DNA of 64,000 nt from an uncultured Marinilabiliaceae bacterium (GTDB taxonomy: Bacteria; Bacteroidota; Bacteroidia; Bacteroidales; Marinilabiliaceae), in NCBI GenBank assembly GCA_937920475.1, contig CALEUX010000009.1, positions 1-64,000 on the forward strand, in the 5' to 3' direction. Numbering within the stretch: the first letter of the stretch is position 1; each line of letters starts with the position of its first letter. Of the stretch, positions 50,709 through 55,597 are shown piece after piece. A program made the position numbers and the translations under genes. A model generated the notes under the pieces. The model was not told where the DNA came from, searched no databases, and saw nothing but the letters and a program-made list of their open reading frames with translations.

Positions 50709-51115
50709 AAACCTGATTTAAGCGATGCTGACTTTAATAGCTCCTTGTCTAACGGAAAATCTTGCTTAACCCAGTTTTCAAAACCACTCTCTAGTTCATA
50801 CACCTTTTTATATTTCATTTTAGCTAACAGTTTAATAACTTCTTTTGTCCTTATTCCTCTCTCACAATAAATAAAAATTGGTGTGTTATTATCAACGTTG
50901 GCTAACAGAGCTTCCAAAACAGCTTTTTCGCCTGCCCATTGAGCATTCGCAATGCGGCTTTTACAAAATTCCTCCTCAACCCGAACATCTAACAAAACAG
51001 GGTTCTTAGCTTTTTGCAACTCTTGATAAAAATCGGCAGGGCTAAGCTTTATAACTACTATTGCTATTGTAAAAATCCATAAAAGCAAAATCTTTGCACA
51101 ATACATAATCAGCAA
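50705..51115 (-). CDS. Rhodanese-like sulfurtransferase, exported
   Basis: 136 residues: an N-terminal hydrophobic helix (MYCAKILLLWIFTIAIVVI, in part) then a rhodanese domain with LLDVRVEEEF and the active-site loop YCERGIRTKEVI, whose Cys carries sulfur. Export or membrane anchoring puts the domain outside the cytoplasm. It overlaps hemW by seven bases and the CDF gene by four, so the three are translated together. Its sulfur acceptor is unknown. Confidence 0.88.
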   Translation of the reverse strand: MLIMYCAKILLLWIFTIAIVVIKLSPADFYQELQKAKNPVLLDVRVEEEFCKSRIANAQWAGEKAVLEALLANVDNNTPIFIYCERGIRTKEVIKLLAKMKYKKVYELESGFENWVKQDFPLDKELLKSASLKSGF

Positions 51116-52224
51116 ATTAAAAAATCTTCAATAATTCTATCGACCTGAAACCAATGCTCTTCTTTACAAATTAAATAATTGTTTAATACTGTTAACCAAC
51201 CTCTGTCAATCCATTTTTCTGCAATTTGGTTAAAACCTTGAAAATACTCCGTAAAATTGTTATTACAATCCTCCATATTTACTCCCCACATGGTGCGCAA
51301 TCCAAGCATTATCATTTCATTGTAACGATCGGCCTGACTTAATGTTTCTTCTTCGTGCAATAAATCAAACCGGCCGATAAGATATTGTTTAAGGTTCGAC
51401 TTATTCCAAAAGCGTTTATTTTCAACAAACGAATGGCTCCCGGGACCAAAACCCAAATAAGGAACACTTTTCCAGTAAGATGTGTTATGTTGTGAAAAAT
51501 ATCCCGGACTGCAAAAATTGGATACTTCGTAATGAACTTTGCCGGCCTTTCCAAGCCCGTCGCAAAGCAACAAATACTGCTCCAAACTTTCAACATCGTT
51601 CAATTCATTCAAAAGCCCATTTCGTTTCAGGTTGAAAAAAGATGTTCCTTTTTCAATGGTTAAATGGTAGGCCGAGATATGCTGCACAGGCAGATTTTGG
51701 AAAGCAGCCAGATTCTCGAGAAAGCTTTGCCTGTTGCTCCAGGGTAAGCCATAAATAAAATCAACGCCAATGTTTTTAAAGCCAACTTTAATAGCATTAT
51801 CTACAGCCATTTTAGCCTGATGCGAATTATGACGACGTTGCATATTTTGTAAATCCAAATCATTAAAACTTTGAATCCCTACACTTAATCGGTTAAAACC
51901 CCTGTTCAGTATTTCGTTGAGATAAGAAGCCGATAAATCGTCAGGGTTGCATTCAATGGTAATTTCAACTTTATCAGATATTAAAAAAAAGTTTTTAATA
52001 GCATTTAAAATTTCGGTTAAATGCTCAGGCTTGAGCAATGATGGTGTGCCTCCCCCAAAATAAATAGTATTAATTTGATAATTAAAATCTGGCGCGCGTA
52101 AAGCAATTTCGCTTTTTAAATTCTCAACAAATTGAGGAATCGACCTCAATTGAGTCGTTTTAAAAAAATCACAATAACCACATCTCGAAAAACAAAATGG
52201 AATATGAACATAAAGTCCTGCCAT
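51109..52224 (-). CDS. hemW: Heme chaperone / radical SAM protein HemW
   Basis: 371 residues from the ATG at 52224 (MAGLYVHIPFC), the standard HemW N-terminus; a longer frame reaches 52317 but would run through the parS palindrome. Radical SAM cysteines lie in CFSRCGYC. Further landmarks are TIYFGGGTPSLL, RLSVGIQSFND and FGPGSHSF. HemW carries heme to membrane enzymes and is often misnamed as oxygen-independent coproporphyrinogen oxidase. The C-terminal HemN-type domain is present. Confidence 0.93.
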   Translation of the reverse strand: MAGLYVHIPFCFSRCGYCDFFKTTQLRSIPQFVENLKSEIALRAPDFNYQINTIYFGGGTPSLLKPEHLTEILNAIKNFFLISDKVEITIECNPDDLSASYLNEILNRGFNRLSVGIQSFNDLDLQNMQRRHNSHQAKMAVDNAIKVGFKNIGVDFIYGLPWSNRQSFLENLAAFQNLPVQHISAYHLTIEKGTSFFNLKRNGLLNELNDVESLEQYLLLCDGLGKAGKVHYEVSNFCSPGYFSQHNTSYWKSVPYLGFGPGSHSFVENKRFWNKSNLKQYLIGRFDLLHEEETLSQADRYNEMIMLGLRTMWGVNMEDCNNNFTEYFQGFNQIAEKWIDRGWLTVLNNYLICKEEHWFQVDRIIEDFLIC

Positions 52225-52233
52225 GAGATAAAT

Positions 52234-52249
52234 TGTTTCACGTGAAACA
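52234..52249. other. parS site (ParB-binding palindrome)
   Basis: A perfect 16-base palindrome TGTTTCACGTGAAACA, identical to the bacterial parS consensus defined for Spo0J/ParB. It lies ten bases upstream of the hemW start. parS sites cluster near the replication origin and load ParB for chromosome segregation. No parA or parB gene is in the window. Confidence 0.85.
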
Positions 52250-52424
52250 TTAAAAAACAGAAGGTTAAAGGGGTTTATTAACAGTTTTTCAACAGAAATA
52301 AACAGTTTTATTAACAATTATTCATTGATATTTGTTAATAAAATAACAAAAACCGATACAAATTCATTTTTTACCAATAATTTTCAAAATAATAAAGTAA
52401 AAGCGTTATTTTGCCAAGAAAAAA

Positions 52425-52811
52425 ATGCAAGTAATCGCTTATCTAAAAAAATATCCATTTACCATTATCAGCATATCGATAATTCTTTACCTAAGTTTTA
52501 TGTCAGTTGGAGGAATTCCCGACAATAAGTTTTTCCAGTTCAGACGTTCCGATTTGATTGTTCATATCTTAATGTATACCTTTCTCTCAGTGGTATTCTT
52601 TAGTGAAAGATATAAAAATATCAAGAATGAAAATATTAAGTTGATATGGAAAATATTCCTGGGTTTGATTTGCTTTGGCGCTACCATTGAAATTCTTCAA
52701 CCCATTTTATCGAACAGAAGCTGTGAGTTTTTCGATTTCATTGCCAATATACTTGGGGTTTTTGCAGGTTTTTTCACCCATAGGTTATGGGTGAAAGTAC
52801 TAAAGCGATAA
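52425..52811 (+). CDS. VanZ-like membrane protein
   Basis: 128 residues with four likely membrane helices: PFTIISISIILYLSFMSVG, a second near DLIVHILMYTFLSVVFF, a third IWKIFLGLICFGATIEILQP and a last one near FIANILGVFAGFFTH. The central His of LIVHILMYTFLS, the Glu of ATIEILQP and the closing NILGVFAGFF are typical of the VanZ family. Roles are poorly known; the family is named for a teicoplanin-resistance gene but also occurs in ordinary genomes. It converges with the Rrf2 gene, the ends overlapping by 12 bases. Confidence 0.8.
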   Translation: MQVIAYLKKYPFTIISISIILYLSFMSVGGIPDNKFFQFRRSDLIVHILMYTFLSVVFFSERYKNIKNENIKLIWKIFLGLICFGATIEILQPILSNRSCEFFDFIANILGVFAGFFTHRLWVKVLKR

Positions 52812-55089: not shown

Positions 55090-55597
55090 TACGCTTCAAA
55101 ATTTTTAGGTTGATGTTTTATTAATTGCGTTTCAAAGATACTAATTGTCAGTTCAAAAGTAAAAGCAGTAAATGTGCAAATATTAAAAGAATTACAACCG
55201 ATTGGTTAATAACAACAAATGGTTAAAATGGTGTTAATAAATTGTGAACTGTGGAAAATAACTTTTTAAAAAATTGTGTTGATTTATTCGATTTTTTTTA
55301 GAAGGTTCTTTTAAGAAACAGATGTCAAGTTTATTTTTATGGAAAATATAGATTTTTTTAAACAGCTTTAATCTTAAAAAACACTTTTGAATTTAAGGAA
55401 AATAATAACTTTGAAATCAATTAACAGTTTGTGAATAACCTAATGTATCAGTTCATTTTCAAAACATTGTAATTATAATAACTGTTAATATAATGGTTAT
55501 AAAATAATCCAATTTTAAGTTTCAAGGCTTTTGTAGGTTTTTTGTCAACAGTATTAACAGTATAGTATCATCATCATATTATTTTAAAATTAAATAT
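55090..55597. other. AT-rich divergent gap, candidate replication origin
   Basis: 508 bases with no gene, flanked by rpiB (minus) and nadA (plus) pointing away. TGTGAATAA (55430-55438) is the complement of TTATTCACA, which fits the TTATNCACA DnaA-box form; TGTGGAAAA (55250-55258) and TGTTAATAA (55232-55240) are weaker. Near the right end lie the repeated AACAGTAT motifs (55547-55563), with several TTAACAG/CTGTTAA copies before them. The composition switch of the top strand and the parS site 3 kb to the left make this the best origin candidate in the window. Confidence 0.45.
55133..55140 (-). promoter_or_regulatory. Candidate -7 box upstream of rpiB
   Basis: On the minus strand the sequence is TATCTTTG, fitting TAnnTTTG, 43 bases before the rpiB start. 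The -33 element is not clear. Confidence 0.3.

Follow-up and report, generated by a model that had tools for sequence, protein, structure and literature searches.

The probable parS palindrome in the hemW leader

Within the window (the whole 64-kb stretch of DNA analyzed here), the gene for the heme chaperone HemW, a radical SAM protein, occupies positions 51109 to 52224 on the minus strand and scores 257.5 bits against a cut-off of 205.4 for TIGR00539. On the far side of the adjoining gap lies a VanZ-like gene (52425 to 52811, plus strand), which exceeds its cut-off in NCBIfam (NF037970, 26.6 against 20) and falls just below it in Pfam (29.9 against 30.1). These are the two neighbors named in the initial annotation, with the VanZ assignment marginal in Pfam. 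In the hemW leader, at a distance of 9 bp from the ATG, we observed the perfect palindrome TGTTTCACGTGAAACA at positions 52234 to 52249, a feature without strand that relatives keep in their own hemW leaders. As the initial annotation had claimed, it matches the 16-bp inverted-repeat consensus of bacterial parS, which Livny et al. 2007 reportedly used, with 0 mismatches. The parS consensus has also been applied to gut Bacteroidota (PMC10197239).

A scan of the 64-kb window that allowed up to three mismatches returned the site at 52234 to 52249 as the sole match, and the draft genome (3.35 Mb in 188 contigs and 76.7% complete, so that further parS copies could be missing) holds one exact copy of TGTTTCACGTGAAACA. 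Under an order-2 Markov model, 1.7 × 10−5 occurrences are expected per 64 kb and 0.0009 per 3.35-Mb genome, which bears out the earlier remark that a specified 16-mer is not expected by chance in a stretch of this size. On this expectation, together with the reversed-pattern controls given below, we rejected a chance match to parS.

The position of the palindrome bears on the start of hemW, which had been placed at 52224 unless the gene were read through the site. Of 26 aligned loci, 13 have an in-frame stop codon 6 to 24 bp ahead of the hemW ATG, which in several of them is the TGA inside parS itself, in agreement with that placement. An upstream TTG start running through parS found no support; the longer frame is not conserved, and 52224 is therefore the likely start.

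A second palindrome and the probable position of the origin

The only other perfect parS-type palindrome in the genome, TGTTCCACGTGGAACA, lies outside the window at C9:67324, on the same contig (C9, 99.7 kb) and directly after the stop codon of mnmG. Cumulative GC skew along this contig reaches its minimum at 55097, within the AT-rich gap of 508 bp between the divergent genes rpiB and nadA. Left of this minimum, at 3 kb, is the hemW site, and right of it, at 12 kb, the mnmG site. The skew minimum upholds the earlier view that the palindrome marks the origin region and that the composition switches 3 kb to its right. Rather than being spread evenly over the genome, a distribution that had been named as evidence against function, the two perfect palindromes sit 15 kb apart on one contig and flank the skew minimum.

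The rpiB–nadA gap, with parS on either side, is the best candidate for the origin. The putative oriC (55090 to 55597, no strand) carries three box-like motifs on the minus strand, TTATTAACA at 55232, TTTTCCACA at 55250 and TTATTCACA at 55430, and is found at the same place in most relatives. In one of these, G008 (4.1 Mb), the sign of the skew changes chromosome-wide at the locus: among 20 stretches sampled, skew is negative in 11 of 11 to the left and positive in 9 of 9 to the right, and locally the sign changes in the nadA/rpiB gap, which is flanked by the parS sites of that genome. The dnaA gene is on contig C174 and not on C9; a location of dnaA away from the origin is commonly reported for Bacteroidetes (PMC4755523; PMC10197239). 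Within the five contigs of G008, a nearly complete genome, a full-length dnaA was not found and only weak short matches appeared, which probably reflects an assembly gap or a search miss.

Proximity to the origin would also suit a pair of DnaA boxes, with the palindrome forming an inverted repeat of TGTTTCACG as part of oriC. Ori-Finder proposed the same 16-mer as DnaA boxes in origin regions of Bradyrhizobiaceae, where it lies next to gidA (PMC2275245). The sequence is, however, the parS consensus, and the genome encodes a ParB with matching specificity residues; in Marinilabiliaceae, moreover, the palindrome lies outside the skew-minimum gap and is also found 12–15 kb away. We consider the DnaA-box reading highly improbable. 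The Bradyrhizobiaceae origins share with the present locus the same palindrome by gidA/mnmG at the skew switch, but they belong to another phylum, the palindrome was read there as DnaA boxes and no hemW site was described (PMC2275245).

Conservation of the two sites

Of 61 relatives, 46 contain the pattern TGTTYCACGTGRAACA and 0 the reversed-pattern control; phylum-wide, 109 of 148 genomes contain TGTTYCACGTGRAACA, against 1 genome with the reversed pattern. Because the family loci were fetched by the motif itself, the informative part is the position of the sites and not their presence. The loci of the family, Marinilabiliaceae as judged from named relatives, repeat one order, from hemW with its parS through the skew switch at rpiB/nadA to mnmG with its parS. 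On the hemW side, the site in relatives lies 6–22 bp before the ATG, with distances of 55–100 bp in some and 247 bp in one. On the mnmG side, 19 of 37 genomes have it directly against the stop codon, and in most others it is at most 18 bp away; the spacing in those 19 is zero, as at C9:67321-67339, with parS running from the first base after the stop.

Two 6-Mb relatives that have no strict match carry one-mismatch sites at both the hemW and the mnmG spots. Eight genomes lack even a one-mismatch parS. Six of these assemblies (G016, G018, G025, G045, G050 and G054) are without mnmG, G010 yields a match to a 38-residue mnmG fragment only, and in G037 mnmG ends ~300 bp from the contig end. We rejected these parS-less relatives as counter-evidence, since missing origin sequence explains most of the eight; the pattern suggests that metagenome bins lose the origin region.

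Among the loci fetched from across the phylum, mnmG lies beside parS in 26 of 29, which makes the mnmG site a widespread anchor. Of 80 named hemW loci, five have parS in the leader (four Marinilabiliaceae-type genomes and one unclassified Bacteroidales), and six other hemW loci with the same vanZ, rrf2, rpiB and nadA neighbors have no hemW-leader parS. Since parS across the phylum clusters at mnmG and these six loci are without the hemW site, the latter looks like a lineage-specific gain.

A palindrome so close to the ATG in many relatives is positioned as a repressor site that blocks initiation would be, and it could in principle be a transcription-factor operator controlling hemW that resembles parS by coincidence or only secondarily. 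Against such an operator, the same 16-mer family follows the mnmG stop codon and occurs phylum-wide around mnmG, not hemW. In addition, the sites of some relatives are 55–247 bp from hemW, and outgroups with the same gene order have hemW without the palindrome. We judge an operator function very unlikely.

Other parS-type sequences occur in the same neighborhood. A copy one step worse than the perfect palindromes, TGTTCCACATGGAACA at C9:67708 (L017:7708-7723), lies inside the coding sequence of adenine deaminase over the codons V-P-H-G-T. Several relatives carry a perfect parS within the start of this gene (ade), and G029 codes V-P-R-G-T there, so that a conserved motif of the protein appears to double, in its coding DNA, as a partition site. 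G029, which belongs to the same family, also carries nine parS palindromes (contig C67, L222:3760-4942). Eight of them form a parS array ~5 kb from nadA, with a tandem-like repeat of roughly 107 bp, flanked by adenine deaminase and a TPR/CHAT-like gene.

ParA, ParB and the SMC step

A search for a parAB pair, suggested in the initial annotation, located one in the genome on contig C70, remote from parS and not beside it. The ParB (L019:5853-6731) scores 179 bits against a cut-off of 58 and is adjoined by a ParA with a Walker motif. The parAB genes of G008 are likewise apart from parS, by about 270 kb, and ParB was found in 20 of 20 genomes tested, above the cut-off in 19. Residues R158 and G186 of the ParB align with R173 and G201 of Caulobacter ParB, which in Caulobacter numbering form the conserved parS-type pair; Noc has Q173 and R201 instead, and positions 1 and 6 of the sites it binds are A and C, respectively (PMC7383237). 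On the Noc model the protein reaches 240 bits, under the cut-off of 315.

Noc is among the best solved-structure relatives of this ParB, which would be compatible with the palindrome being a Noc-binding site for nucleoid occlusion. The palindrome is nonetheless of the parS type, the protein has R and G where Noc has Q173 and R201, and only one ParB/Noc-type gene was found in the genome; we attach next to no credence to a Noc site. Instead, we favor, with a probability of about 0.92, the reading of the palindrome as a chromosomal parS that, with the second perfect palindrome, makes up a pair of predicted ParB-loading sites bracketing the origin. This reading draws on the sequence, its copy number, its proximity to the origin, the conservation of its place, and the presence of ParA and of a ParB with parS-type residues.

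The events that would take place at such a site, from binding through loading of the CTP clamp to spreading and segregation, are those of known ParB biology. A dimer of ParB, whose gene lies elsewhere in the genome, would bind the 16-mer and close as a CTP-dependent clamp, which would slide to the adjoining DNA to build a partition complex; ParA would then move this complex, and the newly copied origins would separate. In the textbook pathway, the handover from ParB to SMC-ScpAB is a usual step. Searches of 21 genomes gave no ScpA, and in none of the 21 did an Smc score over the cut-off. As neither ScpA nor a full-length Smc was found in the lineage, the handover is probably absent here. The SMC step is probably missing, or done by something unrecognised, and ParABS probably works in this organism without an SMC-ScpAB partner. 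Two Bacteroidetes that have parS and lack known condensins have been described (PMC10197239).

A cluster of DnaA-box-like motifs beside parS

Next to parS, in the gap between hemW and vanZ, lies a DnaA-box-like cluster (52275 to 52341) that comprises TTATTAACA at 52275 and 52308 on the plus strand and at 52333 on the minus strand, as well as TTTTCAACA at 52286 on the plus strand. In the same gap, TTTTTCAACA ends at 52294, and the motifs TTATTAACA and TTTTTCAACA that had been noted between the palindrome and the VanZ gene are thus both present. Along contig C9, pairs of TTATYAACA no more than 100 bp apart occur only among the three copies beside parS.

The motif TTATYAACA was first noticed in the window itself, so that its test rests with the relatives. 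Across 23 loci it is enriched in the hemW–vanZ gaps (37 observed against 0.53 expected, about 70-fold) and in the rpiB–nadA gaps (23 against 1.4, 16-fold), on a background of 0.06–0.12 per kb, although these counts are not independent events because the relatives are akin to one another. We counted 4 copies against 0.8 expected in nadA–ruvB, and 0 against 0.75 upstream of mnmG. In outgroups with the same gene order, TTATYAACA is absent from both the hemW–vanZ and the rpiB–nadA gaps, and no canonical DnaA boxes were found in their rpiB–nadA gaps. The canonical box TTATNCACA shows no clear enrichment in the gaps. A role for TTATYAACA as a dnaA autoregulation box was rejected: the 300-bp stretches upstream of 23 dnaA genes contain 7 copies at inconsistent positions.

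It is plausible from its sequence, which corresponds to TTATNCACA with C changed to A at position 6, that TTATYAACA is bound by DnaA. The enrichment in both gaps hints that a further cluster of DnaA type may adjoin parS. A bolder proposal, which we put forward tentatively and regard as possible but rather unlikely, is that the origin is bipartite, with the hemW–vanZ gap as its second half, linked to parS and added after an ancestral rpiB–nadA origin with its mnmG parS, and that boxes bound by DnaA would be no more than about 100 bp away from where ParB loads. The likeness to bipartite origins such as that of Helicobacter pylori would lie in a pair of separate groups of DnaA-box-like motifs close to the origin; the difference is that the boxes here are TTATYAACA, predicted from sequence, and dnaA does not lie between the clusters (PMC8235120). 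If the proposal is true, initiation and partition would be physically coupled.

Relation to known systems and significance

The locus resembles the chromosomal parS regions of ParABS systems in its 16-mer, its origin-proximal cluster of sites, the presence of parAB and the location of dnaA off the origin. It differs from them in that one site lies in the hemW leader and another abuts the mnmG stop codon, so that the origin is bracketed at distances of about 3 and 12 kb, in the remoteness of parAB, and in that SMC-ScpAB was not detected among the genomes searched. The element itself is of an ordinary kind, and its layout is unusually well conserved; what is more original is that a site in the hemW leader and one abutting mnmG form a conserved bracket, and that a cluster of boxes lies next to parS.

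These results place the origin and the partition sites for a little-studied family of Bacteroidota in which dnaA is no marker of the origin, and parS at the end of mnmG offers a simple anchor for locating origins in Bacteroidota drafts. The family is also a case where ParABS appears to function without SMC-ScpAB, a question that has been raised for Bacteroides (PMC10197239).
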